Assembly (NCBI GenBank): GCA_009829735.1
Contig: CM020619.1
Location: forward strand, 23,089,554 to 23,153,553
Direction: 5' to 3'
Source of the DNA: Pyropia yezoensis
Lineage: Eukaryota; Rhodophyta; Bangiophyceae; Bangiales; Bangiaceae
DNA: 64,000 nt
Shown: one piece after another, positions 12,864 to 48,289 of the stretch
How positions within the stretch are numbered: position 1 is the first letter of the stretch
Layout: every line of letters begins with the position of its first letter
The notes under the pieces: generated by a model
Told to the model about the DNA's origin: nothing
Seen by the model: only the letters and a program-made list of their open reading frames with translations
Database searches by the model: none
Translations under genes and position numbers: made by a program

Positions 12864-13967
12864 TTAAAGCCCATCGTACTCCTGAAATATCGTTCGCCCG
12901 CACATTTTGCAGTACACCGCGTCAGGGTCGTGAAAACGCAGTCCGCACCGCCCACACATGGTCTCTCGCTTCTTCTGTGCCACCACCACCGACTTGAGCA
13001 GCGAAGCGACCTGCCACGGGATGGCCACGACCCCAGTGACAATCATGGTGGCAGTCACGAGCTTTCCCAGGGCCGTCACGGGGGCGGCGTCCGCGTAGCC
13101 TACGGCCATGACACCGACACAAAAGTAAAGGGCGTGGGCGAATGTAGAAAACTCAGGCTGTGCCACCCGCTCGGCGTTGTAGATGAGCCCGGCAAAGAGC
13201 CACACGATGGAAAAAAGGCTGAACAGGATGCGCAGCAGGCGAAGCTGCGAGTCGGGCAGTTCAGCCAGGAGGCCCGTCTTTCGGCCCGACAGTACGCGTG
13301 AAATACGGAGCACGCGCGTCAGCCGGAGGATGCGCAGAAAGGAGAGGGAGCCGGCCGGGGTGGCTGCGGCCGCAGCTGCCGCGGTGCCCACCGCACCTGC
13401 CGCTACCCCTGCAGTTGATGCCGCGCCCGTTGCCGCCGCGGCGGCCACCGCAGAGGAAGCCGCAACGGTCGCCGTCCCGCCCCCCGCCCCCGCCGCCGCG
13501 GCACCAACGCCCGCCCCCGTTACAAGCCCCGCCGCCCATGCGCCCGCGGTGATGGCGCCCCCCGCCACCCACCGGACCACCCAGTTGACCAGTGGCACCA
13601 CCGACAGGACATCCACCAGGGTGTAGGGACTACGGAGGTACCCCAGGTGCCATCTCCGTGCCCACCAGCGCGCCAGGAGTTCACCCAGCATACCCACGTT
13701 CATGACCAGCTCAGCCGTCCGCAGGCGTCCCCGCAACGTCGCGCTGACGGGGAGGGTGCCGACAAAGGGGAGGGTGCCGACAAAGAAGAGGGCAGAAAGC
13801 ACCCCGACCTCTAGTAGAATGACACAATCCCAAAAGCGGGAGCTCAGAAGCCCCTGCACCTTGGAGCGAGACACGCGATAGGGTGGGAGGTTCTCCAGCA
13901 GACCGCATCGGCCTAGCAGGGCACGTCGGAAGCGGGTCAGGGGACGGGACCGCCTCTTCTTCGACAT
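12864..13967 (-). CDS. Six-TM voltage-gated-type cation channel with C-terminal zinc ribbon
   Basis: About 367 residues from the ATG at 13967; the frame is open to another Met at 14291. S1 is near FWDCVILLEVGVLSALFF. The S2-S3 region includes the span at YTLVDVLSVVPLVNWVV. There is then a long Ala/Gly-rich insertion. S4 is LSFLRILRLTRVLRISRVL, with Arg at three-residue spacing as in a voltage sensor. S5 is LRLLRILFSLFSIVWLFAGL. The pore helix and filter are FCVGVMAVGYAD, and S6 is VTATMIVTGVVAIPWQVASLL. The filter position reads AVGYAD where K+ channels have TVGYGD, so K+ selectivity is uncertain. The last 30 residues hold two Cys pairs, CGRCG and CKMCG, spaced as a zinc ribbon. This would be an unusual cytosolic end for the family. 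It is probably a membrane channel passing K+ or mixed cations. Confidence 0.75.
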   Translation of the reverse strand: MSKKRRSRPLTRFRRALLGRCGLLENLPPYRVSRSKVQGLLSSRFWDCVILLEVGVLSALFFVGTLPFVGTLPVSATLRGRLRTAELVMNVGMLGELLARWWARRWHLGYLRSPYTLVDVLSVVPLVNWVVRWVAGGAITAGAWAAGLVTGAGVGAAAAGAGGGTATVAASSAVAAAAATGAASTAGVAAGAVGTAAAAAAATPAGSLSFLRILRLTRVLRISRVLSGRKTGLLAELPDSQLRLLRILFSLFSIVWLFAGLIYNAERVAQPEFSTFAHALYFCVGVMAVGYADAAPVTALGKLVTATMIVTGVVAIPWQVASLLKSVVVAQKKRETMCGRCGLRFHDPDAVYCKMCGRTIFQEYDGL

Positions 13968-14908
13968 GGAAGGCGGCACCACATTGCGAAGAAGGGGAGG
14001 CTGGCAGCCCCCTCTGGTGAAAGGCGGGAGGGGTTGGCTCGGCAGGGGCCCGTTGCGGCCTCGCCGCCGGAAGCGGGATGAGACAGCCGGCCGAACGGGG
14101 GTGGCCGCAGTCCACCCTAGTCGTATCCGGCATGGAAGGTGCGGCCGTGGAAGCCCCGGCGGGGGGGGCGTAGCCCAGCTGCAGCCGCCCCTCGCGTCGC
14201 CACCGCGGAGGGAGGGCGACACCGCCCGTCTTTGCATGGTAGGGGAAGAGCGCGGCGCGGCTGCGGCGTCCAGAAAGGGGGGAAACAGCACGGCTCGACT
14301 ATGGCGTCCACAAAGGGGGGGAGGGGGGGGGCGCTACCCAATACATAGTTCGTGGAGGTCGGCGGTGGGAGCGTGAGGGGCGGCTGCGAGCCCGCTCGGG
14401 CGGCTGCGGTGATGACACGCTGGGACAGATCAAGAGGCACACGAGACCCGCTTTGTCCACTTGGTTGCGTCTTGCATTCCACTTTTCTGCATGGAGTTTG
14501 GGAAAAGAAAATGGAAAGTAGGGCCTGTAGGGTGTAAGTCAGACGCTGAGTCGTCGCCCGTGGTGCTTGCCACGGCGGCGCCCGGGCCGAGGCGTGGATG
14601 TGTGGCCTCCTGCGCGGTGAGCTTGTCTCGACCACAACCTCTGCACGGGCCACACCCCAGACACCACCTGCTCCACGCGCTCTCCACCGGGTGTCCTCTG
14701 GCAACCACCTGGCCGTCCGCCCTCGCTACGGTTTCAAGCTCACCTGGCGCTGCTCCCGTATTCCACCCCTCGTCGTCGGCGTCCACCTCGCCGCCTTTGC
14801 CATCCGCCACTTCCCCTACATTTGACGGGTCACTACCCGACGCCCGACGCCCCCAGCCGTACTACCAAGCGGGCTGTTTTTCGAGGCCCTTCGCTGCCCA
14901 CCGCAGCC
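13968..14908. other. Divergent promoter region, channel (-) and adenosyltransferase (+)
   Basis: The spacer between two divergently transcribed genes, so both promoters should be here. The left third (13968-14291) could instead be coding if the channel starts at 14291, but that part is Pro/Arg-rich without domain character. I see no clear TATA box and no further gene. Confidence 0.45.
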
Positions 14909-18410: not shown

Positions 18411-20080
18411 GGGAGACCCGGCGCACCGGTGGGGCGGGGGCGGCGCGGGGGGGGGGGTCCCCGCCCTCGGCGGCCGCGCCACCGTCAGGGAGGTGAACCG
18501 CCCATGGTCACCGGGTGGGGACAGCGTCTCCGCCGTCGTGGCGGGTGGGGGGGGCGACCAAGGTGGTGGGGGGCCCAGCATGGGTGGGGGGGGGGGGCGC
18601 CGGGGGGGGGGGGGGGGGGGGGCGGGGAACGGAAGATGGGGGGAGGGGAGTGAAGTGGGGCGGGAGGGGGGGGAATAGAGGGGGGAGGAAGGGGGCGGGG
18701 TGAAGGCAAAGAGGGCGGCCAGGTGGGGGGGAAGAGGGGGGGGACAAGCCGGGAGAGCAGGGGCGGTGGGGGCGGTGACGGGGCGCGAGACCGTCGGCGC
18801 GACACACGGTGTGCGTGATGCGGCAGGGAGTGAGGGGGGGGGGGGGGGTGGTGGAGGCGGGGGGAGTGGAAGGGGGAGGGTCCGCGGGGCGAGCGGCCGG
18901 TGGGGGGAGAGACTGGTGGCCGTCCGTGCGACAAAGTCGGGACGTGTCGCCAGCGGGCGGGTCGGGGGGGCGGCTCACTAGCCGGGGTTAGGGAGGGACG
19001 GTGGGGAGGGGCGGAGGGGGAGAGGGGGGGGTAATGAGGAGAAGGGGCGGCGGCGAGAGGACAGACGCCAGACTCTCAGTGGCGCCCCGTCGACGGGACT
19101 GGCCACCTGGCATGGGAGGGATGGGGGGGGGGGGGGGGCGAGCGGCCGCGGCCGTACCTCCCTACCCACCGCCCCCCCCCCGCCGCACGTCCCTGTGCCA
19201 CTGCAGCCGCCGGCCACGACAGCCACCGGCAGGGTGTGCCACGCTGTGGGGGGGGGGGGGGGGGGGGGAAGCAGCAGACGGGGCACAGCGAAAAGGCTGG
19301 TGGCTGGGCTGCCCGGGGGGGGGGAGGGGGGGCGGGGGGGGGCAGGCACCAGGCTCTACCAGCGCCGGCACAGTGGCAGCAGCGCTGGCGAGACCCCCCC
19401 CCCCCGCTGCCGGCCAGGCTGTGCCCGCCGGTCGCGCGCACGCGCAGAGGCCTCCCCCCCCCGGCAGAGGCCCCCCCCCGCAGAGGCTCGCCCGAGGAGG
19501 CCCCGCGGGCAGGCGGCCAGGCAGACGGGGGGCGGGCGGGCGGGCGGGCGGGCGGGCCGACGGGCAGGCAGGGGGGGGCGGGCGGGCGGGCACACTGGCG
19601 GGCGGGTGAGAGGCCAGCGTGGGGGCGGTGGCGGCGGTGAGGGTGGGGGGGGGGGGGGTTGGGGGGGCGGGTGCGGGAGGGCGTTGCAGACCGATCACAC
19701 CCTCCCACCCACCCCCCCCCCCCCCCAAGCGGCGTGTTGACGCCGCCGCGCGTAGCGTGCGGACCAGCGACGACAACGACCACCACGTGGGGTGGGGTGG
19801 GGTGGGTGGGGGGGGGAGTGGCAGCCAGTCACGGCGGGTGGGGGAGCGCCAGCCCCCGCCCCACACGCGCCGGTCCGCGGCGCAGCGGTCACGGGGGGGG
19901 GGGAGGCGGGGAAGGAACGCGGGGGGTGGGGTGGGCGGAGGGGTGGGCGGCCCCAACGCGGCCATGCACGACGCGTGCCCACCGTGGGTTTAGTAGAAAT
20001 GGCAGGGGGACGGAGGGAGGCGGCGTGACCGTGCCTGGGCCCCCCCCCCCCCCCCCCCCCCGCCCCCATCTGTCGCAGGA
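18411..20080. repeat. G-rich low-complexity region with long G runs
   Basis: About 1.6 kb in which the plus strand is dominated by G, with runs of 8 to more than 15 G at many places (for example near 18601-18621, 19119-19138 and 19248-19268). A GGGC tandem lies at about 19528-19556 and a C run at 20041-20061. The plus strand has strong potential for G-quadruplexes. Frames across it are Gly/Arg-rich on one strand and Pro-rich on the other; I take none as a gene. The first 170 bases could be the N-terminal part of the cyclin gene or its 5' UTR. Confidence 0.7.
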
Positions 20081-22502
20081 TTGGTCGGCTGTGGCACCGG
20101 CGGGCCCCCCCGGCCAGACCACGCCACGCCAGCGTGGCGTGAGCCACGCCAAACCGGTGCTCGTCCACGCCACAAGAACCAGCAAACGACGTTGGGTGGT
20201 TGCTGTGGGACCGGGACAGTCGGCCTCGTCGCAGGCGGGGAGGGAGACTGCTGTGGGGGGGGGATACATATCTGATGGGTAGCTGGCTGGCTACCCCCCA
20301 TCCGGGTGGGGGTGGCCAGGAAAGGGAACCAGCGGAGCGCACTCGGTCAGTGTGGCTGGCGGACCGCCCGCCCGGCCGCCCGATTGCCCCCTCCCCCCCG
20401 CCCTCCCGCTAGGTCCCCGGCCGCCTGCCAGGCCGCCCTCCCACCTCTGAAATCCCACGCCGCCCCACCCCCACCACCACCATCACCTCCACCACCACCA
20501 CCACCACCACCACCACTAAATACCACTGAGGACGCGGGTGGGCGCCCACTACGATACGCACCTGGGGCGGGGGGAAGGAGCCTCGCGGGGAGAGGGGGGT
20601 GGGCGACACGCAGCGACTGCCAGCCAGCCGTGACCCCCGCCGACCGCGCCCCCCTTCTACGCCCCCCTCTCTACCAGAGAGTCTCTGGCGCTGCCTGTGG
20701 CCCGCCGTGTCGCATGGGGGTGTAAACGGGTGGACCTGGCGCGCCGCTGACGCCGGGCGGGCCCGACAGATAGCGCCGGCCGCACCCCCAAAGCGCACTT
20801 GCTCAGTGCTGCACTGGCTGTCATTTGCCATGACAGCGTGTGGACCGTACTGTATGTATCTTACTGTACTTCGCACCGGCCAGGCCCGCGGCCCCCGGGG
20901 CCGGGCCCCTGGCCCAGACACTCTCCCCCCCCCGGAACCCAAAGAACGCAGACCTTGGACGCCGGTTGACGGTGCCAGCGGGGAGTCTGACCTGTCAGCA
21001 GAGGGCCACAGGGTGGCTTGCAAGAGGGACGGAGGCGCCACCCGCCGTCCTTGCGAGGAGGAGTGCTGCGCAGCGCCCCCCCCCTCCCCCCTCAACAGCT
21101 TGCTTCATGCGCGAGCCGCCGCTGCCGCAGGCCGGCGCCCCTCCCCCACGGTAGATTTGGAGGGGGGTTGGAAGGGGTCAGGTAGGGGCGGGTGGGGGCT
21201 GCGGCGGCCAGGATTCCCGCCACGGAAGCTATTTCCGTGGGAGGAGGGCGGTCCTCTGTGGTCACGAGGGCCCATCGCTAGCCATCACCGCCCGCCGCTC
21301 TGCTCGGTGAGCAGAGCGGAAGAGAAACAAGCCATGAAACATCAGACACGAGCAGTGGTGGTGGTGGGCCCGACGTCGCAGTGTCCTGTGGTGAACTTTA
21401 CTGTGTACTGTACGGCCTCATCACACGTGGGGCGGGGCTGTGCTCCCGGTTGTGGTGCGTGGTGGCCCTGAACTCCCCGGACCTGTCTGGTGAGTCCATT
21501 GGCGGTGGCACATCGTGGAGGGGTCGTCGGCAAAGTCGTGGGGGGGGGCGCGCACCGCAGCAGAGTCGGCTGGTGCAGAAGAGGAGGAGCAGGATGCGTG
21601 GGTGGCACGTGCAGAGACCCGGCAGCCCGTTGCCGTGAGTGGCAACTGCGATGTGTCCCGTGTTGGGATGACGGGAAGTACAGTACTATATATGTCACAA
21701 TTATTTAAAGTAGTTTAGTAGTATTTCATAGTGAGCCGTTCGACCGTCTGTTGATCGTCATAGATATCGATCAGGTTGGTTCGATCGGAGGTCAAGTGAT
21801 CCAGATTGCACGACCTCCTGTGCCTTGCAACGACGCCATGCCATTGGTCGAGCCCCCAACCTCCACGGTGAGTGGCGTCTCTCCTAAGATCCCCGCCACG
21901 TGTATTCTGTAGCCCGATGGATATCTGGATCCGTATCGCACCGTCCTTGTCATGCGCGGCCGCCCTCGTTGGCCAACCAGGGGCGGACCAGGTGGCCATC
22001 TGTCTCCGCCGCCGCCCCTATTCCGCCATCGCCGGGAGTCCCCGCCCGTCTGGTGGAGTCGCGCCCTGGGCCGCAGCACCGGCGCCAACACCCGTGTCTG
22101 GGCTGCGCCCCGCTGGCAAGGGTGCGCTTCAAGGGCAGGCCCCCCAGCCCTCAGGCGCGCCCCGGGCGCGGTGAAACACCTGTGCGGCACCCCCGGGAGC
22201 GCCCCCGTCAGCAGAGGGTGGCCTGCGGAGGGGCCGCTGTTTGCCGCACCGCCAGCGTCTTAAGCCGCTTCCCGGCGCCCTCCCACTTCCCGTCCGCTGG
22301 TCCCCTCCCCCTCCCCCCCACGCCCCCCCCCTCCCCCCGCGCGTCCCCCCTTTCGGTTGCTTCTGGGGGTAACCCATTCTGCCACCGCTGTGCCTCCTCC
22401 CCCCCTCCCCCCCCCCTTGTCCCCTACCCCCCTCCCCCCCCCCCTGGCCCCCTACCCCCCTCCCCCCCCCCCCCCCCCCGCCCCTGCTGAGGCCTTTGTG
22501 CT
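20081..22502. other. Intergenic region upstream of the RBR-Sec24 gene
   Basis: About 2.4 kb without a recognisable gene. It includes a CCA-type microsatellite at about 20464-20516. GTACTGTAC lies at 21405 and GTACAGTAC at 21678. A relatively AT-rich block spans 21670-21800. A C-rich tract (22310-22480) lies immediately before the next ATG. The tract and AT-rich block are candidates for the promoter region. Confidence 0.5.
20464..20516. repeat. CCA/CCACCT microsatellite
   Basis: Short tandem of CCA-type triplets ending in a perfect ACC run. No open frame of interest uses it. Confidence 0.8.
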
Positions 22503-23020
22503 ATGGACGTGCCTGTAGCACTCACGTGGGGCGGGGGAGGCCCCCCCCCGGGCGTCGACGCCGCCTCTGCGGCGGGCGGTTGGGTTCCCACCGCCCCGCC
22601 GCGACGCACTGTGACGGCAGGTGCGTCTGCGGCGGCGGGCGCCACCGCCGAGTGCGGCATCTGCATGGACGACCTGCCGGCGCCGGCGCTCGTTGCCGCC
22701 GGCCGTTGTGGCCACGCCTACTGTGCGCCCTGCCTCGCCCGCACGTGGGCGGGTAACCTGGCCAGCGGCGGCGGCGGCGGCGGCGGCGGTGGTGGTGGCG
22801 GTGGTGGCGGTGGTGGCGGCGGCGGCCGCCCGCCGGCCGAGTGGTGCGTCGCGTGCCCGTCACCGGGCTGTGGGGTGCCCGCCGTCGACGCGACGATCAG
22901 CGCGGTGGGGGGCGACCGCTTTGCCGCCCGCGTCCGCGCCATGCGGTGGCAGTCGGTGGCCCGGGCGGGGGCCACGGGGGCTGTGCTCCTCTGCGCGGCG
23001 GCCGACTGCTACGAGCCGCT

Positions 23021-23055
<35 letters not shown>

Positions 23056-23503
23056 GGGGGCGGGTGGGGGGTGGTGGTGCTGGGGGGGGGGGGGCGCCGC
23101 CGGCCGCCGCCCAGCAGCGGGTGTCCATCTGCTGCCACCGCTGTGGCGCCCGCACCTGCTCCTGGTGTGGCGCCGCCGCCGCGGCCGTCGGCGGCGGCGG
23201 CGGCGGCGGCGTCGACACGCACGAGTGCCTCCGCCCCCCCGTCGCCGCTGCCGCCGGGGGTGCCGCCGCGGCCGCTGCCGCGGACGCGGCCACCCTCCGC
23301 TGGGCGATTGGCCGCGTCGGCCGCTGCACCCACTGCGGGGTGCCCGTCCAGCGCGTGTCGGGCTGCCCGACCGTCCGGTGTACCGCCTGCAACCGGTCCT
23401 TCCACTGGACGGCGGTGCGGTCCACCCGGGCGGCGGCGGCGGCCCTCGCCGGCGGCCGCGACGCAGACGCCCGCGCGCTCGCCGCGCACGCCGCCGCCCG
23501 GCA

Positions 23504-23541
<38 letters not shown>

Positions 23542-24657
23542 GGCCACGGCGGCCGGCCTTTTGCGCCGCCGCCATGCGGCGGCTGCGGCCGCCGCTCTAC
23601 GCGCCCGTGGCGGGCACGCCGCGGCCGCGGGTGGTGCACCCGGCGGCGGCGCTGGGGCCCCTCGGGGCCACCCTGCCTCCGCCCCCGCCCCACGCCAACG
23701 CCGACGTGGTCGCCGTCGACGGCGGCTCCGCGACGGTCCGCTACCAGCGGCTGACGACCGCGGCGCTCCCGGCAGACCCGGCGGTGGCGGCCGTCGCGGC
23801 GTTGCCCCTGGGGCTGATTGTCACCCCGTTTGCGGCGCCCGCGCCGGGGGAAGCGCCGCCGGTAGAGGTGGCCTGCGGTGGGCAAGACGGTGGCGGGCCG
23901 CTGCGGTGCGGGGGGTGTGGGGGGTATGCCAACCCCGGGTGGCGCTTCCTCGGCGGCCCCCCGCCCGCCGCGCAGTACGTGTGCAACCTGTGCTTGTGGG
24001 TGGGCGCCACCCCCGCCGCGTATTGCGACCGCCGCCGCCGGGGGGCGGCACCGGAGCTCCGCCGCGGGTCGGTGGACTATGTGGTGCCCGCCGGCTATGG
24101 CGCCACGGGCACGGCGCCCCCGCGGCGGCAAGGACCGGCATCGGCGCCCCCCCGCTTCCTGTTTGCGGTGGAGCTGTCGCCACACGCGCTGCGGGTGGGG
24201 CTGGCCGCCGCGGCGCTACGGGCGGTGCGGGACTTGCTGGCGGCGGGGGTCCTGCCGGCCGGCGGCGGCAGCGGCCAGACCCGGCTGGGGGAGGGGGCGG
24301 GGTCGTCTGCTGCCGCCGCCGCCGCCGCCACGCGGGTGGCCATCATGACCTATGGCGGCGGCGGGGGCCCGCTCTTTTGGGGCCCCGACGGGGCGGTCGC
24401 GCCCCCCGGCGGCGGCGGCGGCGGTGGGGGGCGCCCCTTGGGGGGACGGCGCCGGCCCGCCGCCGCCGCCGGGGCGGCTGCCCCGTTCCACTCCCCCCCC
24501 GACGCGGCGGCTGCGGCGGCCGCGGCGCTGCAGTGGGCGACGGACGCCCCCCGTGGGGGCCGCCGTCTCCCCAGCCGCGGAGCGCGTGCTGGCAGCTGTA
24601 TCGTCGGCGCCGCCGTCGCCGCGGTCGCCGCCGCGCTGGGAGCAGAGGGCGACGACA

Positions 24658-24691
<34 letters not shown>

Positions 24692-27032
24692 TGGCGGCAG
24701 CGGCGGCGGGAGGGGCGGCGGGGGCAAGGCCTTCCTCATTGCCGCGACGGGCGCCGCCGACTGGGGGGCCCCCCGTGGGGCGCCGTGGCCGTGGGTGGCG
24801 GCGGCCGTGGCCGCAGCCGGCGCGGCGCGGCCGCCGCGCGCGGCCGCCGCGGCGGCCCCCCCCGGGCGCCCACACCCGACGCCGCACGCCCCGTTTCACG
24901 ACGCCGGCCCGCACCCGCCCACCCCCGTCGAGCGGGGCCACCCCGCCGCCGCGGCGGTCGGCCGGGCGCTCGCCGCGGCGGGCGTGTCGGTGGACGTGGT
25001 GCTGGCGCCCGGCGGGGGTGCGCCGGCGGGGGCCCCCGCCGGGGCGGCGGGGGTGGCCACCGCCCTGCGGCTGGCGCGGGCGTGCGGCGGCCGCTCCTAC
25101 CACTTCCCCGACTGGGACGCGCCGCGGGACGGCGGGGGCATGGCGCGCATCCTCACGTCCGCCGCCGCGTCGGTGTGTGCGTTCCGCGCGTCGATGGAGG
25201 TGCGGGCCAGCCCGGGGCTTGCCGTGCTGGGGGAACCCGCCTCTGGCTGGGCGGGGGGGCTTCCCCCCGAGGCGGGCGACGTCGTTGACAAGGATGACGA
25301 CCCCGACGGCTGCCGCCCGCGGGGCGTGCCGGTGGGGGGCTCCCCGGTGATGGACGCCCACACCGCCAGCGCGGTGGTCCTCGCCGTGCGCTCCCCGCTG
25401 CTTGCCGCCGACGGCACCCCCGCGGCGCGCGCGTCGTCCGCCGCCGCGGCCGTCAACGCGCCCGATGCGGGCACGGGGGACTCTGTCGGCGGCGGCAGCG
25501 GCAGCGGCAGCGGCGACGGCGGCGGCGACGGCGGCGGCGGTCGCGGCGGCGACGGGCGCGCACACGGTGGGTACGATGACGGCGGGCGGGGCATCCCCTT
25601 TGCACACCGCCCGTGCGTGCAGGCGGCCGTGGCCTACATGGACCTGGCGGGCCGCTGGCGGGTGCGGGTGCACACGACTTTTGGGGAGGCGGTCGGGCGG
25701 CCACGGCTGGTCTTTTTCCACGCCGACGTGGACGCACTGCTGGCGCTGCTGGCCAAGCGCGCCGCCGCGCGGGTACTGGCCGGCGCCTCCCTCGCCGACA
25801 CCCGCCAGACGCTGGCCGAGGTGCTCCTCCGCCTTCTCGTCGGCTGCAAGTCGCGGCCCCCCGGCGAGGCACCGCCGCCGCGGCCGCCGCCGCGCGCCGC
25901 GGCCGCCGCCGCCGCCCCCACCGTCGCGGAGCGGCGGCAGGGGCGGATGAGCGTGCCCGTGCTGCTGGCCATGCTCCCGGCCTATGCGTTGGGTCTCTTC
26001 AAGGCTTTCGCGTCGGTCCCAGGGCCGGCGGCGGGGGGCCCGCCGCCCCGGGCGGCGGCGGAGGAGCAGGCAGCCGCCCTCACGTCGTTGCTGTGGCACC
26101 CGCCGGCGACCATTGCCGCCCGCTGCTACCCGCGGGTGTACGAGGTCGGCTCCCCGCCACCCGCGGCGGGGCGCCCGGCGCCGCTCCCCCCCGCCGCTGC
26201 GGCACCTGCACCCCCCCCCGCGGCGGCCGCACCGGTAGACGGGGCGGCGGCCGCGGCGGCGACAGAGGCGGCCGCCGCCGCGACGGCGGCGGCGGCGGCG
26301 GCAGCTGCAGCGGCAGCTGCAGCCGAGCCGGTGGGCCTGCCCCCCACCGGCCTGGCGTGCGCGGCGCGGTGTGGCGGCCACGGGCAGACGCTGGTGGAGG
26401 ATGGGGAGTGGCTGGTCCTGTGGGTGACCACCCCCGACGCGCCCACCGCGCGGGGCCTGGTCGGCCGCCCGCCGGCGGGGGGGGGCGGGGGCCCGCCGGC
26501 CGCGGCCGCGGCGGCGGCGGCGGCGGCGGCGGCGGGCGGCGGCCGCCGGGCGGTCACCCCCCTCCTTGGCCGCGTGGGCGGGTGGCGGTCCGCCGCAAGG
26601 GCCGCGGCGCCGCCCCCCCGCGGGGGGCGGCTGCCCACGGGCACAACACCCGCCGCGGCCGGCGCGGCGGCGGCGGCCGCCGCCGCCGCCGACGCGCCGT
26701 TGCTCCTCCGCGCCGACGCGGGCCTCCCCGCCCCGCCCACCGACCTCGGCCGCGCGCAGGCGGCGGTGGTGGGCCGCCTCCTCGCCTCCCGCCCCGCCCT
26801 CACCACCGTGCGGGTGGTGGTCGGCCGGCCCGTCGGGGCGCCCACCCCGTGGCGCCACGCCAATGGCCTGTGGGTGGAGGATGCCGGCGACGGCGGCGGC
26901 GACGACGGGGGCGGGGGGGAGGGGCGGGGGGAGGGGGCGCCCGCCACTGCCGGCGACTACCGCCGGTGGGACTTTGACGGCTACTCTGAGTGGCTGGTCG
27001 ACTCGGTGAATGAGCGGCTCGGGCACCTGTAG
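22503..27032 (+). CDS. RBR-type E3 ubiquitin ligase fused to a Sec24-like COPII coat protein
   Basis: A single uninterrupted frame of 1,509 residues with two modules. Residues about 51-310 are a RING-IBR-RING unit. RING1 is C51GIC, C69GH71xxC74xxC77, then C115VAC and PGC. The IBR has LLCAAADC near 164 and CCHRCGARTCSWC near 210. RING2 is CTHC at 275, then SGCPTVRCTAC with the expected catalytic Cys at 288. RBR ligases form a thioester with ubiquitin on that Cys. Residues about 466-1509 follow Sec24. The zinc finger is CGGCGGYANPGW...CNLC (469-497). The trunk starts VDYVVPAGY and RFLFAVELSPHALRVG (~550). The beta-sandwich/helical part includes VQAAVAYMDLAGRWRVRVHT (~1037). Further on are LPAYALGLFKAF (~1160) and YPRVYEV (~1209). 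The gelsolin-like part has DGEWLVLWV (~1300), and the terminal helix is FDGYSEWLVDSVNERL. Sec24 selects cargo at ER exit sites. Linkers are Ala/Gly/Pro homopolymers. RING2 ends FHW instead of the usual FCW. Confidence 0.88.
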
Positions 27033-27116
27033 GTAGAGGTGGAGGGCGCACGCGCCGCGGCAGGGGCCGCCCCTGCCCCGACGGCGTCGCCCCCGGTCAG
27101 GGCAGTGCCGAGCCGA

Positions 27117-27148
<32 letters not shown>

Positions 27149-27508
27149 GAATGACGTGGCGTCGCCGGTGGGGGAGGGCGCCTCGGATAAGTGGGGGGGG
27201 GAGCCGGGGGGCGGGGGGGTGGGGGGGGGGGGGGGGGGAGTTTCAGCGGCGCCGGCTTCACGGCACGGCAAGGGCCTTGCCCTCGGCCTTGCCGCAAGGC
27301 CCGTGCCGACCGGGCAAGACGCGGACGGCGGGTGGAGGGGAGGGGGCGGCGGCGTGCGCGGCGGCCGTGGCGGCGGCGGCGGCGGCAGCTGCGGCGGCGG
27401 CCATGACCTTGGAATGGTGGTGGGGGTGGTGGTGGTGGGGATGGCGGCCATGGGGACAGCGCGCCTCGCGCTCCGCCTCCGCTGCCCACAGCGGGACAGC
27501 TGCATGTA
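27033..27508. other. 3' flank with long G runs
   Basis: Sequence after the RBR-Sec24 stop, with G runs near 27118-27147 and 27209-27238, then Gly/Ala-codon-like GGC repeats near 27350-27400 in no convincing frame. No gene recognised. Confidence 0.5.
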
Positions 27509-28282
27509 TAGTCAGTGGCCAATATCGTTTGTCCACTTTACAGCTGACAATCCAAGAATTAATTTGTCACGATCTGCACCCTGCCCAGGCGCGCTGGGTT
27601 TGCGGCCAGCGGCTGCGACTTCGTAGAATCCGATGGCACCCCTCGCCCCCCCCCCCACCCATCCTCAACACCACCAACAATTAATGAGACAACCACCTTC
27701 GCACGCACTAGCCAACAAGACAGCGAGGCCTACCCCGTCTCAGTACTTGATCCCGTTGCCCTTGGAGGCGATGACGGCCGCTACTCGACGGGGAATGGAG
27801 TCAATGAGGGTCTTGAAGAACGCGTCCGGTATGGCCGTCCACTCCTCACAAAGTGCCAGAAAGAGGTCGTCCTTGTTCTGGGGGGCGGTCTCAGTTCTCA
27901 CGTGCCAAGGCACCGGCGCCGCTGCGCACCTTCCCGGCCACATGGGCAACGGTGCTCTTCTTGACGTCGAGGTCGGTCGCAATGGCCCCGTTGCTGTTGC
28001 CCTTGGACGCCATGTCCTTGATGGCAGCGGTCTGCTGGCTCGTCAGGGACACCCGGTTGTGACCTGCCATGGTTGCGTTTTTTTTTTTTTTTTCTCAGCC
28101 GTGATGCATGTGGAGGACGTTTTTATACCGGTCGGCAGTCGCCTTGTGTTGCGGCGCTTCCCCAGAAAAATGTGGTCCTGAGTGCGCCTGGAGCGACATA
28201 TACCACGAGATTGCAGCATAGTCCAGGCATGGGACCCGGGATTTTCGACGGTGGACAAACGCGATTTTGGCAGGCGATTGTA
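27509..28282 (-). mobile_element. Internally deleted Tc1/mariner-type DNA transposon
   Basis: About 774 bases. The ends carry imperfect inverted repeats: CAATATCG-TTTGTCCAC near 27520-27536 on the left, and the complement of CAAAATCGCGTTTGTCCAC near 28251-28269 on the right. Both lie next to TA dinucleotides, as expected for this superfamily's TA target duplication. Inside, on the minus strand, the N-terminal helix-turn-helix part of a transposase runs almost directly into its C-terminal end. The DDE catalytic core is missing, so the copy cannot mobilise itself. A T run (28078-28093) precedes the transposase ATG. The exact ends are my best reading. Confidence 0.7.
27740..28070 (-). pseudogene. 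Transposase remnant, N- and C-terminal parts only
   Basis: The first part starts at the ATG at 28070 (MAGHNRVSLTSQQTAAIKDM) and runs about 59 codons through a helix-turn-helix-like stretch (NGAIATDLDVKKSTV) to a TGA at 27891-27893. The second part, in another frame, ends at 27740 with QNKDDLFLALCEEWTAIP, then DSIPRRVAAVIASKGNGIKY. This is the characteristic Tc1/mariner C-terminus (EW..IP...L..S.PRR...VI...G). Roughly 200 residues containing the DDE/D catalytic triad would be expected between them and are absent. Confidence 0.75.
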
Positions 28283-30006
28283 CAGTACCAGTACCACCAG
28301 AGCCACGACCGGCGGCGGGCGCGAGCAGGCATGGTCATGGTCATCACACACAGTTCCGTCCGCTTTTCGGTCTCAGCGTGGACACCTCGGTGCTCGCCCT
28401 CGCGTGTGCGTTTCACGCCCGGTACACCCGAGGTGGCTGTGCCGCCAAGCGCCCCGCTGGGGCGTGTGGCGCCGTACGTCCGCACCGCCGCTGCCCGCAC
28501 GGGACCGCCGCCGCTCCCACGCATGCGCACCGCCCCCCCCCCCCCGCGGGCCCCACGCACGCGCCCCCCCCCCCCCCCCCGCAGGGGCACGCGCCCTCCT
28601 CATGACGTACGCGTGTTCTAAAAAACGGCGCGGGGCACCCGCCGGCCGCCCGGCCGGTCGTGGTCGGCGGCGGCGGCCGCGGCGGCGGTGGTGGCGGCGC
28701 AGCCGGTGGACCCCCCCCCCCCCCCCCCGCGCACCCCCCCGCCCCCACATCCCCCTCCGTCACCGTGACGTGGCGCTCCGCCCTGTGCTGGGCGCGCCGC
28801 CGCCGGTGGAGGAGGGAAAGTGGGAAAGGGGCGCGGGGGGCACGGCGGTGGGGGGGAAGGAAAGAGGGGGGGGGGGGGGGGGAGCAAAGTGGGCAAGGGG
28901 GGTCGCCCGCGCGCCCCCCTCCCCCACCCGGGCCCACCCCCCCACCGCCCCCCCCCTTTCTCTCCCCTTGCCCCCAAGGGGAATACGCGGCGCCTGCCGT
29001 GGCCTGCCCACCTGCCCGTCGCGCACCACCCGCGCGTGACGCCGCCGGGGGTGGCGGGGGGGTGGCCGCCCGGCGGGCACGGGGCGGGACGGGTGCGTTT
29101 TCTCGTCTTGCGGGCGGGGAGGGGTAGGGTGGCAGGGACAGGTGGAAGGGCGGGGGGGGGATGCGGGGGGGGGGGGGAAGGGGCAGCCGGGGGGGGTTGG
29201 CGTGGGGGCAAATAAGAATTCCAGGCCCTCCCTCCCCCCCCCCCACCGTGGACGCCACCCCCCCCGCCCGCCCCGTCCCCGCTGACCGCCCCGCGCCGTG
29301 CCCGTCCCCGCAGACGCGACCGGCCAGCGGGCGGGCGGGCGGGCGGGCGGGCGGGCGGGCGGGCGGGCGGGCGGGCGGGGCGGGGCGGGCGGGGAATGCC
29401 CAACGTAACGGGGTCGTGACGGGGGTGACGGCGTGCCGCCCGCGACGGGCTCGGTCGCGTCCTGGGGGAGGGGGGAGCGGGTGGGGGGCGTGGGGTGGGG
29501 GGGGCGTGGGCGGTGGTGACTGGGGAGGTGGCTCCGCCAGGCGGGCGGGGGGACGGCCGTGGGGGGCTTGGGGAGGGCGGCAAGGGCCGGGGGGGGGATG
29601 GAAGGGCGCAAGTGGAGGCGGGACGGCCGGCGGGGCAGGAAACAACGGGGAGGGGGACGCCCCCCCCCCCCCCCCCCCCCCCTGCCGCCACCCGCCTGCC
29701 CCCCTCCCCCCCCCCCCCTTTTTCTCTTTTTTGGTCCCCGCCGCCGTCGACACCGCGCCACCCGCCGCTTCCCCGTCTCCGCCTTTGACCGTGGTCGCCC
29801 GCCCCCCTCTCCCCCCCGCGTCGACTACCCCCGCATCGTCGTCCCGCCGTCGTCCCCTCCCCGCCCCCGCCAGGCCGCCCGCCCTCCCCGCCCGCCCGCC
29901 CGCCCGCCCGGCCGCCCACCTCTGTCACCCCCCCCTTCACTACCCCCCCCTTCACAACCCCCCCCACCACCCCCCCTCTTGGGAGCGTTTGCCCCCCCCC
30001 CCCGCC
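28283..30006. repeat. GC-skewed low-complexity intergenic DNA with GGGC tandem
   Basis: Alternating C-rich and G-rich blocks with many homopolymer runs. A GGGC tandem of about 16 units lies at 29322-29394, and C runs occur near 28710-28730 and 29660-29682. Frames on both strands encode Pro/Arg/Gly low complexity and I call no gene. Sequence accuracy in such runs is doubtful. Confidence 0.6.
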
Positions 30007-30358
30007 ATGGCAGACGACCAACCCCCCCCCCCCCCCACTTCCCCCACCCCCACCCTCCCCCCCCCCCCCCCTCCCCCCCGGCAACGCCGCCCAGCCGACG
30101 CCCCCCCCCCCTCTCCCGCCTCTCCTCCGCGGGCCGCCTCCCCCCCGCCCTCCGCCGCATCTCCCGCGCGTCGGTGGCGGCGGTCGCCGCCGCGGGGGCG
30201 GCGGTGGTGGTGCGGCTGGGGAGTGGCGACTCGGCCGGCTCCTCCCCGGGCGCCGCCGCCGCCGCCGCCGCGCGCCGGGGGGGGGGGGGGGGGGCGCCGT
30301 CGTCGCCCACGTCGGTCGCCGCGGCGGCCACCCCCTGGGCAGACGGGCCGCGTCGCAA

Positions 30359-30410
<52 letters not shown>

Positions 30411-30608
30411 CCGCCCGACGGGCCGCCCAAGCAAGCGACTGCGGCAGCGGCAGCGGCGGTAGTGGCGGCGGCCGAGGCGGGCGGAGCCACGGGCAGAGAC
30501 GCGGCCGCCGGCGGGGCGGCGGCCGCCGGGGCCGCCACCAGCCCCGCGGCGGCCGCCGTCCGGCGGCTCCACAGCGCGGCGGCAGCAGCAGCGGCGGTAG
30601 TGGCCGAC

Positions 30609-30642
<34 letters not shown>

Positions 30643-31028
30643 CCCCCCCCCTCACCGCCGCCCCCTTCCTCGCCGCCGCGGCGGCGGCGGTGGTCGGGGA
30701 CTGGAACCGGGGCCTGGCCATCCTCCGCCTCCTCGCCGCCTACCGCACCACCCTCCCGCGGGAGGTGGTGGCCGCGTGGCACGCCTGGGCCGCCCGCTGG
30801 GCGGCCGCCACTGGCGCGCTGCTCGACTGGGAGGAGGAGCGGCTGGCGCCCGCCCTCGCGCCGGGCGCCCGCGCGCGGGCCGCCGCCTGGGCCGCCGCCA
30901 CCGCCGCCACCGCCGCCGGGGGGGGGGGGACGCGGCGGCGGCGGCGGGCCGCCGCCCGGTGAGCCCCCGGCGGGAGGAAAGGGGCGGCGGCGGCGGCGGC
31001 GGCGCCGCCGTCGCCTCCCCTGGCTCCC

Positions 31029-31066
<38 letters not shown>

Positions 31067-31111
31067 TCCGCGGCAGGCGCTGACGCCCCGCCGCCGCCCG
31101 CGGTGGCCGAC

Positions 31112-31145
<34 letters not shown>

Positions 31146-31765
31146 GGAGCGCCGCCGGCGGCGGCCGGCGGGCGCCCCACCCGCTGGGCGCCGCCACCCT
31201 CCGCCGCACCCGCGGGGCGCTGCGGTTTGCGGCCGCCGCGCTGCCGCCGCTGGGCGCCGCCGCCGCCGCCGCGCGGGGCCCCCCGGGGGCGACGCTCCCC
31301 GCCGCCCTGGCGGCCACCGCCGCCACCGCCGCCGCCCTGGCCGCCCACCTCCCCGCCTGGGTGGCGGCCGCCGCCGCGGCGGCCGCCGAGCTGCCCCGCC
31401 CCGAGGCGGTGACGCTGGCCGCCGCGGGCGTTGCCGCCGTCGCCGCCGCCCTAGGGGCGGCGGGGGGAGGGGAGGAGGGGCGCGAGGGGAGCACCGCCGC
31501 CGCCGCCGTCGCTGACTGGCTTGTGGCGGGCATGGACGACGGTGACGGTGGGGGCGGCGGCGGCACCGCCAGCGCGTGGCGGACGGCCGTGGTTGGCCGC
31601 CGACGGCGGCTGCGGTGGGCGCGGCGGCCGCTCCGCCGCGGGGGGCGCCCGACCGGCGGCCACTCCCCGCCCGCCGCGGCCGACGGGTCGCCCACCGCCG
31701 CCGACGGGGACGACTCGGACGACAGCGCGGGTGACGGCGGCGGTGGAGGTGGTGGTGGTGGTGGT

Positions 31766-31798
<33 letters not shown>

Positions 31799-31972
31799 TC
31801 CCAGCGCACGCCTAAAGGCGGAACGGGCGGCACCCCCATCCTTACCATTGACGAAGTGTGGCTGGCAGTTTCGGCGGCGGCCGCCGACGTGTGCGGCGCG
31901 GGCGTGCCGGTGGACCCCGCGCACCGGGGCAAGCGCGAGTCCCTTTCCTACACGGCCACGTGGGGAGGGTGA
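30007..31972 (+). CDS. Ala-rich protein of unknown function, frame broken at homopolymers
   Basis: Tentative gene. An ATG in a GCCATGG context at 30007 starts a Pro-rich frame. A second frame carries credible sequence from about 30110 (RLSSAGRLPPALRRISRASV) to 30959 (GDWNRGLAILRLLAAYRTTL, then an acidic DWEEERLAP). A third runs to the TGA at 31970-31972, ending ILTIDEVWLAVSAAAADVCG. The frame changes fall at long C or G runs (30025-30080; 30919-30929), so sequencing indels in one gene are the simplest reading. Alternatively GTGAGC at 30959 is a splice donor, though I did not find an in-phase acceptor. Middle parts are Ala-rich helices without clear TM spans, and the tail has an Asp/Gly repeat. 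No family recognised. Confidence 0.35.
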
Positions 31973-33120
31973 TGTCCACCCACCCCGGTCACCGCGGCTA
32001 CCCCATCTTATTGGCACCGGCACGCAGGCGGGCCCGCGTGACGCGGCCCGCTACCTGGCTGCTACCTCAGACCACGCCACCATCACGAAACAGTGGCGGG
32101 GTGCGCCTCGCCTGGCAGACCACCCCCAGGGTGCCGCTCTGGACAGAGTGAACGGCCACCGTACGGGGGGCTCACCCTGCGCAACGGTCCCCAAATGGGC
32201 TGTGCGGAGGCGGCCACCTGCTCGGTGCCTCCCGAGGAGCTCGACACCCTCGGGGCGCTGGGAACGTCGACCCCGCCGACGGGCGTCGCTCCCGCCGGCG
32301 GCCGCCGCTCCCAACCCAAACGACCCCTGCGCCATCACCTCCTGCGGTACCGCGGCGGTACCGCGTACAGGGTACGGGTGGCGCGCGTGGACGACGGCTT
32401 TGTGGAGCTCCACAGCACGTATGTACGGTGGGTGTGCACGCGGATGGGCGGCAGCGGGGGGGAGCGGCCACCGGTACTGAGGTCTCCCTCCTTACTGATA
32501 TTTGATGGCGCCGGCCGCTGCCATTCCCGTGCTGGGGACCCCCTCCTCTCTTCCACCGTCGCCAGCAACGGCCTCCCCGCCATCTCTCGGGGGGATGTTC
32601 ATGCTGAGGATGGGCAAACGTACCAGCTGTTTTCACACAGGTGGAGCTGGCGGCGCGATCACGTCCGTCTGGTCTGTTGGAGGCGTCGCAGCATGGAAAG
32701 AGGGCGAGACTGTAGCCGCCGAAGGCACCGCTTCCTGCGCTGCTGCGTTGTCAGGTTGAGCATTACAGCATTGACCCAGCTGCGGGGGAAAAAATCCAAA
32801 CGATGCACCATGTTGCTAGTGTCTTCACAAAATATATATGATCTAACATAATATTGAGACTCTCACCGGGATGGTCGATCTGCGATTAAACCCGGGTCTA
32901 CCGCGTGACAGGCGGACATATGGTACGTTGCACAAAAAAGATACATCGAGCATTATTTTCTTTCTTCTCCGGCGTTGTTCGGGCCACACCCCTCGGCCAA
33001 TCAGGTGCCTCGGGAATTTGCCCCGGTGTAATGGACTGGTCCTGCTTGATGGTGGGCTCCTTTCGGGTGTGGTGTGCACGCTCATTAGTCAGGCTTTTGG
33101 GAAAGTGTGCAAGGTTTTGA
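31973..33120. other. Intergenic region before the minisatellite
   Basis: About 1.1 kb of mixed composition that becomes AT-richer after 32750. A short stretch near 32340-32450 could encode YRVRVARVDDGFVELHSTYV on the plus strand, which looks protein-like. Its frame has no credible start or context, so it may be an exon or remnant I cannot place. Confidence 0.4.
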
Positions 33121-33649: not shown

Positions 33650-34117
33650 TGTGGCAAAAACCACTTGCACACACAGTACCCAAGTTGGGGCGGTGTGCGA
33701 GGGCTGCCTCCCGTGTCGGGGGAACCGGAAGAAGTGCAAGTCGCACACACTCTATCCCTGTTGTGGGGCAATCCCCCCACGGACAAACAAGAAGATGGTG
33801 TGTGGTCCAACAGTTTCTTGGTCGGGACGGGGACGCAGGGCCAAGCCCCGCTGTCCCTCCCCTTATCCCCCCAGGGTCCACTCAGAATCTCGCCACTCAG
33901 AATCTCCCACCCCAGCACCTGCCCACCGGGCCACACGAAAATTCAAGACGATAAATGCAGAAAACCCTCAAATCCAAGTTGGATTTACTACTAAGCTAAC
34001 TATCCCGAACTTAGGGAATATGGACCCAAATGCAGGGGGAGGAACGGATCAGGCTAGTGGCCTGCCGCCCCTTGCATGGCACGTGTTGCCCCCTACCTGG
34101 GGGTCAATACTGCCACA
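33650..34117 (-). repeat. 3' LTR of A1 (468 bp)
   Basis: Bounded by the perfect 7-bp inverted ends TGTGGCA and TGCCACA. The same sequence recurs at 48290-48757 (inverted, also 468 bp) and at 60400-60889, which proves the LTR limits. It is rich in short inverted repeats, for example AAATCCAA and TTGGATTT around one base at 33969-33985. Confidence 0.95.
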
Positions 34118-34131
34118 CTCCCCTCTCCTCA
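34118..34131 (-). other. Polypurine tract of A1
   Basis: On the minus strand TGAGGAGAGGGGAG abuts the 3' LTR, the expected site for plus-strand DNA priming during reverse transcription. An identical tract abuts the A2 LTR. Confidence 0.9.
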
Positions 34132-34435
34132 GTTCCGACCGACCCGGTCGGCCCTGTGAGGGGGTGCGTAAACGCGCGTCTCGGCGTTGGGGGGGACGCG
34201 ACTTGCTGTCCCCCCTTGAGTACGTAACGCGGATGTGGAGGCGGTCACGTTGGCCGCCCCTCTCCTCAAGCTTGCCCACTTGGCAGCTTGCTCTCCTCGG
34301 TTCACACCTCACCACCACCACCACTTCTCCTTCACCTTACACGGGGCCACCCCACGCTGGGGAGGCCACCCGTTTACCCACGATCCGAGTCCCCCTCAAC
34401 TCGAGGCGGGTCTCGTGCCGCGATAGCCAGGACGT

Positions 34436-34456
34436 CTCTCCCCAACTTGGGGAGAG
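34436..34456 (+). promoter_or_regulatory. Perfect hairpin two bases before the antisense ORF start
   Basis: Arms CTCTCCCCAA and TTGGGGAGAG flank a single C, and the ATG follows after CC. The same hairpin, with T in place of the centre C, stands before the ATG in the fragment at 48903, and in A2. In an mRNA it would close the leader directly at the start codon, so it could affect initiation. Confidence 0.7.
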
Positions 34457-34458
34457 CC

Positions 34459-36402
34459 ATGGCGACTCCGGGAGTGGAGACGGACTCTCTCGATGAGCGT
34501 ATGGAGGACACCTCCTACGGTGCAGCGCCTGCCGGGACTTCCGGCGGGGGCTCCGCGATCGCTCCGGGGGGTGGGACTCCCGCGTCACCCGGCTTTGGGT
34601 TGACGGCAGGATCTCCCCCGGAGGCGGGACAAGTTGTCCCGCGTGAGGCCTTGGGGCGGTGGTTTTACCCCGCTTGGCCTCTGTATGAGGAGGGGTTGAC
34701 TGTTCTTCGCTGTGGCCGACTCGGCGCAGCGATGGGTCGGGTATGGGACCGCCTACGGGAGAAGTATCCCCGTAGGGTCGGGTTCCCTGCCGGCTTCAGG
34801 ACGGACCAGTTTGCCTTCCTGGACGACGAGGAGGTCGAGGACGTGCAGCGGGCCAAGGCCATGGTGGACCGCGGGGGAACTATCCCGGGTCCCGGCGACT
34901 TGCCGACCTTCACTTGGGACGCGGTGGCAACTCGCCCCCCGTACCTTCACGAGGCCGATCCGCACACTCATCACTTTGATGTGCGGATGGAAAAGGACTT
35001 CCGGCGAGGTCCCTACTTGGTGACCTCGGCTCAACTTGAGTTTCCTCAGCAGTCTGCTGCCAGTAAGGAGCAATACTACCCGAAGAAGCCCGAGTGGTGG
35101 CCTCAAGTTGAGGTCCCCTACGGGTTCCCGGCATTGTTGCCACGGTTGCTTGACCACTTCGGCTCCGTCATGTTGACGGCTGGCCCTGATCATCTGGTGT
35201 GGGCCATGTTGGCCACCCAGTGGCTCCTCGAGGTCATGTCGACCTGGGTGTCATGTGTTCAGCGGCGGGGGATGCTCTGGCATCTCCCCCTCCGGCTCAT
35301 CCAGGGTTTGGAACAGCTCACCCCTCAGCTAGTTGCTGAGGGGTGCTCGTCAGGACAACTCACTCTACTTGAGGAGATGCTCCGCCTCCACAAGTTTATC
35401 GAGTGGGAGAGCATTGAGCACAAGTTGCGCCGCCCCACTCGGGGGCCCAAGGACGATGGCGCACTTCGCCAGTTCGTATGGGTCGCTCGTGAACTTCACG
35501 ACGGCCGTGTGGTCCTACGAGAGGGGTTGGGCATCGGGGACTACCCGTATGCCCCGGGGGTGGATCGTCACACTGCGCCACCCCCGGACAAGCCCATAGT
35601 TATGGCTGTGCCCTCATATGATGACCATATGACTCAACCTACTGCGGGGGCCCCAAGTCGGGGTCGCAGTTACACCCGGGTACCGCCACCTCGGCGTGCC
35701 CCTCCGCTTCCTCCTGTTCCTTTCCAGCCTCACGGGAACATCCCGATCAGCGTGGCCGTGGAGTCATCCACACCGGTGTCTCCCAACTTGGGGGCCACCC
35801 TCCTGACGGTATACCCCAAGTTGGTGTTACCGCCCACGCCTCTAACCTCAGAGATGATGATCACCACGTTGGTGCGCACCATTTCCTGGTTGGCCGCGTC
35901 GACCGCAACCCTCCAAAGTTCCGAGACTCCTCAACTTGAGGAGCGCGTTCGTACTGCAGTGGCGACCGCGAGTTGCGAGTCGGTGGCGGAGTTTATGACG
36001 GCCGAGTTGGCTCGCATTGGGGCTATTATGCCCCAGCCAACCCCACTTGGGCGTGGCAAGCGTCGTGCGAGCCGGGCATACTCGCCTCCTCGCCGTCGTC
36101 GCCGTCACTCGCGGCGCTCTCCCTCCGTGTCGGAAGACGAGTTGTCTTACTCCGTCTCGGAGTCCTCTACCCCATCGGAGACGGAGTCTGTCCAGCGTCT
36201 GCGTCGCAAACTAGCGCGCAAGACCAGGCAGAAGAGTAGCCACGGTCGGCGCCACTTGCGCGACCGTGAGGGGCGCGACGGTTCCGACTTGGAGCCGCCG
36301 CCCCTTCCAACGAGTGGAGACCGTTATCGGCGTGGGTCTCGCCGCTCGCCTCCACGTGAGGGCGAGGGCCGTGGAGTGGGAGAGTCTAGCATGCGTGCCT
36401 AG
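34459..36402 (+). CDS. Antisense ORF protein of family A, copy A1 (intact)
   Basis: 647 residues, on the strand opposite gag-pol and convergent with pol (112 bases apart). The ATG at 34459 has a GCCATGG context and is conserved in A2 and in the fragment at 48903; upstream in-frame Met codons lie in non-conserved context. No known domain. A disordered Gly/Ser/Thr-rich start is followed by a folded core, about residues 60-380. This includes YPAWPLYEEGLTVLRCGRLG, WWPQVEVPYGFPALLPRLLD, then FGSVMLTAGPDHLVW and RRGMLWHLPLRLIQGLEQL. Then comes a Pro-rich linker, a helical part with TPQLEERVRTAVATASCESV, and a Ser/Arg-rich basic tail (SPPRRRRRHSRRSPS) likely to bind nucleic acid or enter the nucleus. 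The core resembles that of the family B antisense protein. Function unknown. It is not gag, since a zinc-knuckle gag is present separately. Confidence 0.8.
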   Translation: MATPGVETDSLDERMEDTSYGAAPAGTSGGGSAIAPGGGTPASPGFGLTAGSPPEAGQVVPREALGRWFYPAWPLYEEGLTVLRCGRLGAAMGRVWDRLREKYPRRVGFPAGFRTDQFAFLDDEEVEDVQRAKAMVDRGGTIPGPGDLPTFTWDAVATRPPYLHEADPHTHHFDVRMEKDFRRGPYLVTSAQLEFPQQSAASKEQYYPKKPEWWPQVEVPYGFPALLPRLLDHFGSVMLTAGPDHLVWAMLATQWLLEVMSTWVSCVQRRGMLWHLPLRLIQGLEQLTPQLVAEGCSSGQLTLLEEMLRLHKFIEWESIEHKLRRPTRGPKDDGALRQFVWVARELHDGRVVLREGLGIGDYPYAPGVDRHTAPPPDKPIVMAVPSYDDHMTQPTAGAPSRGRSYTRVPPPRRAPPLPPVPFQPHGNIPISVAVESSTPVSPNLGATLLTVYPKLVLPPTPLTSEMMITTLVRTISWLAASTATLQSSETPQLEERVRTAVATASCESVAEFMTAELARIGAIMPQPTPLGRGKRRASRAYSPPRRRRRHSRRSPSVSEDELSYSVSESSTPSETESVQRLRRKLARKTRQKSSHGRRHLRDREGRDGSDLEPPPLPTSGDRYRRGSRRSPPREGEGRGVGESSMRA

Positions 36403-36513
36403 TTGGCAGCTGCCTTTGTTGTGAGAGTGTGAGGGTTAGGGCTGTAGTTTAAAGCCACTCTGCGTACCACTTCGACTTGAAGCACTCTCTTGGCACTGTT
36501 GCTCGGCCTTCCC

Positions 36514-42440: not shown

Positions 42441-42500
42441 GTTGGCTAACGATCCGTATGACACGGTCCAAGTCCACCGTTCCTCTGAGACAGAGGGCCC

Positions 42501-48275: not shown

Positions 48276-48289
48276 TGAGGAGAGGGGAG
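48276..48289 (+). other. Polypurine tract of A2
   Basis: TGAGGAGAGGGGAG directly before the 3' LTR, identical to that of A1. Confidence 0.9.

Follow-up and report, generated by a model that had tools for sequence, protein, structure and literature searches.

The subject of this analysis is a single open reading frame of 1,509 codons plus stop (22503..27032, forward strand) in a window of 64,000 nucleotides (nt) from the red seaweed Pyropia yezoensis, the source of nori (genome coordinates C2:23089554-23153553); all positions below are those of this whole stretch unless a contig is named. The frame probably represents a genuine gene whose product is a fusion: a non-canonical RBR-type (RING1-IBR-RING2) head from a membrane-type family is connected through a linker to a diverged Sec24C/D-type adaptor of the COPII vesicle coat. 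Both halves come from known families. A sequence-only reading of the window had described one uninterrupted frame of this length with an RBR and a Sec24 in it. This is borne out: in codon statistics the frame ranks first across the RBR half, the linker and the Sec24 half, and the observation as a whole is confirmed by these statistics, by homology and by selection on the Sec24 half. We infer that a single transcript carries both parts, that the protein would be recruited to the coat and that it would bind a ubiquitin-conjugating enzyme (E2).

The open frame and its Sec24-type body

The frame begins with an ATG at 22503 and ends with the stop at 27030, the in-frame stop upstream being at 22488. 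According to a section of the genome paper, the genome of P. yezoensis has a G+C content (GC) of 65%, and its coding regions one of 71% (PMC7423979). The local GC of the DNA of this frame is 78-84%, so that long open frames are cheap here. Indeed, the longest stop-free run counts 1,513 codons, and in 300 first-order Markov copies of 22003-27532 such runs were 704 codons long on average, the longest having 1,486. The length of the frame was therefore rejected as weak evidence for a gene, and codon statistics, homology and selection tests were used instead. The codon table was built from the Sec24 half, from five of the RBR relatives and from two other Sec24 genes, with the RBR half and the linker left out. 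The frame was the best of six in 47 of the 48 scoring windows within it, including 12/12 of those confined to the RBR half and linker, i.e. outside the training set. Directly before the ATG lies a pyrimidine-rich leader (22260..22502, forward strand; C+T 0.73-0.90 per 60 bases). Over the 60 bases preceding their starts, the two other Sec24 genes have C+T of 0.80 and 0.65 (the first taken at a slightly misplaced start), and since such a leader is not a uniform mark of genes in this genome, it counts as weak evidence.

The Sec24C/D-type body comprises residues 371-1509 (23613..27029). It was delimited by BLASTP to P0002, a 1,020-residue protein with four Sec23/24 Pfam domains, and by alignment to P0002 and to L003, another Sec24 gene of this genome. 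The BLASTP match consists of three collinear pieces (371-618, 809-970 and 1038-1440; identity 31-42%), which cover the trunk in parts. In the alignment, identity is 43-44% to P0002 and L003 and 29% to L001, and the best solved relative of this half is Sec24C (expectation value, E, of 1.3e-15). The zf-Sec23_Sec24 zinc finger (residues 466-507, 23898..24023) reaches 19 bits in Pfam (1.5e-3; cut-off 25), and its four Cys (C469, C472, C494, C497) are invariant in the Sec24 alignment. The Sec23_helical region (residues 1075-1168, 25725..26006) scores 19.4 bits (9e-4; cut-off 27.8) and is likewise aligned, the beta-sandwich match (0.05) is below cut-off in a stretch where the alignment with P0002 is collinear, and the gelsolin-like part (about residues 1282-1445, 26346..26837) is placed by alignment only. 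The complete Sec24 order claimed in the sequence-only reading thus stands by alignment but not by domain models: the Pfam Sec23_trunk and gelsolin models found no match in the window protein, and none of the models for the Sec24 parts passes its cut-off.

A genome-wide search with the Sec23_trunk model returned three genes (L001, L002 and L003), the window gene not being among them. L001 and L003 align as Sec24s, with no RBR in the parts read, and L002 was read as Sec23 by inspection. Besides the fused gene, this genome thus contains two further Sec24 genes, which appear to be unfused. By alignment, the Sec24 half is a diverged, 82%-GC paralogue of the Sec24C/D-like L003, and hence an extra Sec24 rather than the sole one; with two other genes present, it would be free to specialise.

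A second copy allowed selection on this half to be measured. Most of 19441-32920 of the window is repeated at C1 18.35-18.38 Mb, a segmental duplication, 13 kb or longer, shared by two chromosomes; the C1 copy carries large insertions. The Sec24 part from 23775 on (23775..27032, forward strand) is 95% identical between the window and this copy (L025, at C1:18.36 Mb). Identity alone does not separate coding from flanking DNA, because of the two realigned flanks (identity 93.5% and 88.4%; 12 of 31 gaps multiples of three) the first comes near the coding figure; the codon pattern does. All eight indels before the stop are multiples of three, and a 4-base gap at the stop is a tandem GTAG that leaves the stop intact. 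Substitutions fall 38/37/76 on the three codon positions, a third-position share of 0.50 vs 0.31 under neutrality. Over 1,047 codon pairs the synonymous and nonsynonymous rates are dS 0.092 and dN 0.037, so that dN/dS is 0.40 (bootstrap 0.30-0.54), against a median of 1.09 and a minimum of 0.64 in neutral simulations with the flank spectrum (n = 300). The Sec24 half has therefore been selected as protein. If one of the two copies had been neutral and the other constrained, a dN/dS of about 0.5 or more would be expected; the lower value hints at a period of constraint on the RBR-less copy, too. At the positions conserved between L003 and P0002, 5 changes fall on L025 and 8 on the window, and 26 match neither.

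L025 lacks the RBR head, its homology breaking at residue 425. In place of 21657-23775, which takes in the head and 54 residues at the start of the Sec24 homology, it has 2.9 kb that in large part occur in copies elsewhere in the genome. L025 was therefore rejected as an unfused ancestor: the break lies inside conserved Sec24 (23775) against repeat-like DNA, so that L025 is a truncated copy. Separately, four old Sec24-like fragments (L057, L058, L059 and L060) share 69-79% DNA identity with 24236-25092 and 25938-26233, without the stretch between. They begin inside Sec24, are uninformative on the join and look like a decayed piece spread by repeats.

The RBR-type head and its family

Six relatives (L010, L011, L024, L026, L027 and L028) were found by searching the genome with the RING2 stretch. 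They align with the window head over the whole RBR at 35-43% identity, and together with it they form the family alignment used here. L007 was viewed beside them and omitted, as a RING2 pattern was not recognized in it. The window head keeps 30 of the 35 columns invariant in the six relatives, including 20/20 Cys/His columns, namely the eight RING1 ligands, seven IBR Cys, four Cys of RING2 site I and the Cys at the catalytic position. The profile of the seven members matches ARIH1 at 6.2e-14, covering RING1, IBR and RING2 in that order; for the IBR-RING2 piece by itself, E is no better than 0.021. The family is spread over C1, C2 and C3 (the three large contigs of this 107.5 Mb genome measure 43.6, 34.3 and 29.4 Mb).

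RING1 (residues 51-123, 22653..22871, forward strand; ligands C51, C54, C69, H71, C74, C77, C118 and C123) holds a Gly-run insert of about 22 residues. Scanned alone, this segment just passes two Pfam models (zf-RING_UBOX, 28.4 bits, cut-off 25.2; zf-C3HC4_2, 27.2 bits, cut-off 27), and in the whole-protein scan all RING matches were sub-threshold and IBR gave none. All eight C3HC4 ligands are present and invariant across the seven family sequences. The IBR (residues 164-242, 22992..23228), defined from the family alignment, keeps seven Cys (C164, C169, C211, C214, C219, C222 and C242). The His that five of the six relatives have is not at that column, and a His241-like residue lies near C242. 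Pfam IBR has no match in this region of the window protein, while PF01485 matches six of the seven family members. The RING2-like part (residues 275-302, 23325..23408), recognized by alignment and by the family profile aligned to ARIH1, has zinc site I (C275, C278, C293, C296) and, at the catalytic position, Cys288 in SGCPTVRC; the IBR_1 model touches it at E 0.013, below cut-off. The pattern of zinc site II is missing, with FHWTA where FCWxC would be expected, and so is the His two residues after the catalytic Cys (SGCPT).

In the sequence-only reading the RING1-IBR-RING2 order with the catalytic-Cys motif had already been recognized, and the conserved Cys/His columns uphold it. The reading had also remarked on FHW in place of FCW, which is correct in wording; it is a family-wide trait, however, and not a flaw of this gene, and the second change in RING2, at the His of the catalytic triad, had been overlooked. 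Of the family members, 7/7 lack FCxxC as well as a His at Cys+2. Among the other RBR-type genes of the genome (L004, L005, L008 and L061), FCxxC is present in 4/4 and the catalytic His in 2/4. As the pattern of RING2 zinc site II is not found, the head was filed as RBR-like: judged from its sequence, it is a non-canonical rather than a canonical RBR. One relative, L024, has two RING2-like units in tandem, the second of which keeps one Cys of the FCxxC pair; copies of L024 carrying these units are present at C1:1.31 Mb and C1:19.64 Mb.

The ligase chemistry of this head appears doubtful, and the transfer of ubiquitin would be its most doubtful step, because the RING2-like part is without the second zinc pattern and the catalytic His. 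It is quite conceivable, though short of probable, that the fused protein is made and that its head is a pseudo-ligase, which would bind E2 or ubiquitin as a scaffold or as a brake on the coat without forming a thioester. This is a variant of the fused-gene explanation, and the likelihoods of the two overlap. The family-wide loss speaks for it, the second unit of L024 retaining a single Cys of the pair, as does HHARI, whose second RING2 site uses C372, C375, H382 and C389 and in which zinc is required for the fold (PMC3772753). However, all seven members retain the Cys at the catalytic position and the whole of site I, which is unexpected for a dead site. Furthermore, the Cys of RBRs is described as essential and the other triad residues as variable, HOIL-1 having Trp at the His position and an altered C-terminal half of RING2 (from an excerpt of PMC9834252).

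The relatives differ from the window protein in what follows RING2. In 6/6 of them there are 2-4 hydrophobic segments (mean hydropathy 1.8-2.7), which are probably membrane-spanning; the canonical RBR L061 has one hydrophobic segment as well. The scan is crude and also flags four stretches of the window protein, all within the Sec24 half; one lies in a segment that the ordinary Sec24 L003 has as well. Between RING2 and Sec24 of the window protein, no hydrophobic segment was flagged. This arrangement suggests that the window member swapped the membrane anchor of its family for Sec24.

The join and the competing explanations

The two halves are connected by an Ala- and Pro-rich linker (residues 303-370, 23409..23612, forward strand), and codons 301-400 have a GC of 0.89/0.78/0.94 by position. 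Within 23401-23700 none of the three forward frames has a stop codon, so that a single indel there could not yield two clean genes. The second frame stops at 23754, inside the Sec24 homology, and the third at 25288.

Could the frame instead represent two transcription units that overlap, one for the RBR and another for a Sec24-like protein with its start at Met358 (23574), which read as one only through the scarcity of stops in GC-rich DNA? Long open runs are common in such DNA, Met358 lies just ahead of the start of Sec24 homology at 371, the codon scores of the linker are negative, and L001 and L003 have long N-terminal tails of a kind not seen in the window protein. On the other hand, the RBR frame has no stop until 27030 and the alternative frames stop inside Sec24, so that an RBR message would still enter Sec24. 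Moreover, the frame is the best of six across the linker, and there is no pyrimidine-rich leader ahead of Met358, where C+T is 0.53-0.63 per 60 bases. We regard two units as rather unlikely. Relatives in which the two parts are neighbouring but separate genes, which would point to a fusion by gene model or assembly, were not encountered in this genome, where the near copy lost the RBR region to a repeat insertion.

A decaying relic, i.e. a once-functional fusion drifting under GC-biased mutation, is also unlikely. It would account for the 33 changed positions among 107 strictly conserved Sec24 positions, for the GC of 83/73/90% by codon position over the whole frame as compared with 71/59/71% in L003, and for the presence of four decayed Sec24-like fragments of the same type elsewhere in the genome. 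The dN/dS and third-position share given above speak against it; furthermore, there are no frame-breaking changes, and the head keeps every Cys/His column of its relatives.

A fusion created by an assembly misjoin or an uncorrected indel might be considered, as the assembly was built from PacBio RSII long reads (with Quiver polishing, BioNano and Hi-C, according to a part of PMC7423979) and GC-rich runs are error-prone in sequencing. Yet it is very improbable: there is no N in 21900-24300, the frame stays the best through the linker, and the Sec24 homology extends upstream beyond the 23775 break of L025 to residue 371.

Several observations weigh against a functional fused gene. Two linker windows, although best of six, score below zero (-0.16 and -0.10), and 2/7 windows upstream of the frame also prefer its reading frame, with negative scores, which weakens the codon test. 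The RBR half has no second copy for a selection test: among the best 40 of 375 candidates scored in a DNA search with the head, no other copy of it was found, and besides the head itself and a 58-base edge of L025 the matches listed were short or of 66-80% identity, scattered over repeat-like parts. The RBR-less L025 is still open for 1,171 codons and has about as many changes at conserved sites as the window, so the Sec24 part may work without the head, which speaks against a strict need for it. Some in-frame indels would arise in GC-rich triplet repeats even in the absence of selection, and of the 107 columns identical in L003, P0002, P0003 and L001 the Sec24 half keeps 74. Finally, no fused homologue appeared in the protein searches, which were weak. 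With residues 380-1509, the best 8,000 candidates by shared words (probably filled with low-complexity proteins) gave only P0002; with residues 396-578, at E up to 1e-10 and with candidates likewise limited to 8,000, only P0003 was returned and P0002 was missed, both being Sec24s without an RBR; and a weak search with RING2 (262-312) had 4 candidates and no match. Scans of viral contigs found no relatives.

Besides this gene, the window contains two arms of 5,414 bases (33650-39063 and 43344-48757) in inverted order and 100% complementary. They lie in frames that match reverse transcriptase, RNase H and integrase; one of these frames also matches a chromodomain model, though below its cut-off, and by domain order we take the arms to be of the Ty3/gypsy type. 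Frames related to them are located at 53.2-58.5 kb. Between the inverted elements lies a 1 kb island of 32% GC (42001-43000), the rest of the window having 55-87% GC. On the reverse strand there are a frame of the succinate dehydrogenase/fumarate reductase flavoprotein type (5913-7688) and an ion-channel frame (12867-14333).

A possible coat-borne ligase and its known counterparts

Sec24 pairs with Sec23 and picks cargo at endoplasmic reticulum exit sites. In RBR ligases, RING1 binds E2-ubiquitin and RING2 hands the ubiquitin on via its Cys. On this background we tentatively propose, as a possibility that we hold with less than even confidence, that a membrane-type red-algal RBR exchanged its anchor for a COPII adaptor and became a ligase borne by the coat, whose activity would be switched on by coat assembly at the exit sites and directed to cargo or coat in cis. 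The Sec24 body would pair with Sec23 and be recruited to these sites, thereby taking over the targeting role that the membrane anchor has in the relatives. RING1 would then bring E2-ubiquitin to the forming coat, and the acceptors of this ubiquitin could be coat subunits, cargo that the Sec24 body has bound, or the fused protein itself. As an outcome, cargo choice or coat size might be tuned.

The sequence-only reading had spoken of a ligase built into the cargo adaptor. An RBR-type head and a Sec24-type body in one frame, with separate Sec24 genes present, are indeed what is found; an active ligase on the coat goes further than this, because in the head, as in its six relatives, RING2 has neither the pattern of zinc site II nor the customary His. 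If the proposal is true, a ligase would sit directly on the coat of vesicles leaving the endoplasmic reticulum, and the effect of ubiquitin on the coat itself would become directly testable. It would also mean that a family of membrane ligases can change its targeting by an anchor swap. The non-canonical RING2 common to the family raises the question of whether a RING2 with one zinc site can still carry ubiquitin. Note that full-length cDNA of P. yezoensis has been sequenced, as mentioned in a portion of the genome paper (PMC7423979).

Among the open-licence papers listed in literature searches, no title or abstract beginning showed an RBR-Sec24 fusion; a paper on COPII evolution (PMC4419792) and a survey of apicomplexan COP proteins (PMC6357402) were covered in part. 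Several known systems come close to the window protein. Within P. yezoensis, the membrane-type RBR family resembles it in sequence and in the RING2 ending without FCxxC, but has hydrophobic segments where the window protein has Sec24. Sec24C/D-type proteins (human Sec24C, 3eh2; L003) are alike in the zinc finger and the following parts in order. They differ in having an N-terminal tail in the place of the RBR head, and the window protein has about 43% identity to L003 and 33 of 107 conserved positions altered.

ARIH1, also named HHARI, carries an Ariadne domain. Among solved structures, this ubiquitin ligase (E3) of the Ariadne RBR type (PDB 5udh, 4kbl) gives the best match to the family profile; it shares the RING1-IBR-RING2 order, the ligands and the catalytic-position Cys; it differs in having two RING2 zinc sites and the His after the Cys, and no Sec24. 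Its knockdown is reported to lower the ubiquitination of Sec31, on which it acts in trans, and CUL3-KLHL12 monoubiquitinates Sec31 (both from a part of PMC7835409). Linear chains made by HOIP on STING promote binding to Sec24b, the zinc-finger region of which is implicated (PMC12302577, in excerpt). HOIP/LUBAC with Sec24b on STING and CUL3-KLHL12 on Sec31 resemble our proposal in placing ubiquitin on COPII cargo or coat, whereas ligase and coat are separate proteins there. CUL3-KLHL12 had been named in the sequence-only reading as a precedent acting in trans; it is on record as such, but the RBR cases ARIH1 and HOIP are the closer ones. As to architecture, CUL9 (cullin-RING plus RBR; PDB match 8q7e; described in a part of PMC11257990) is comparable, as an RBR module within a larger protein of another class, its partner being a cullin and not a vesicle coat.

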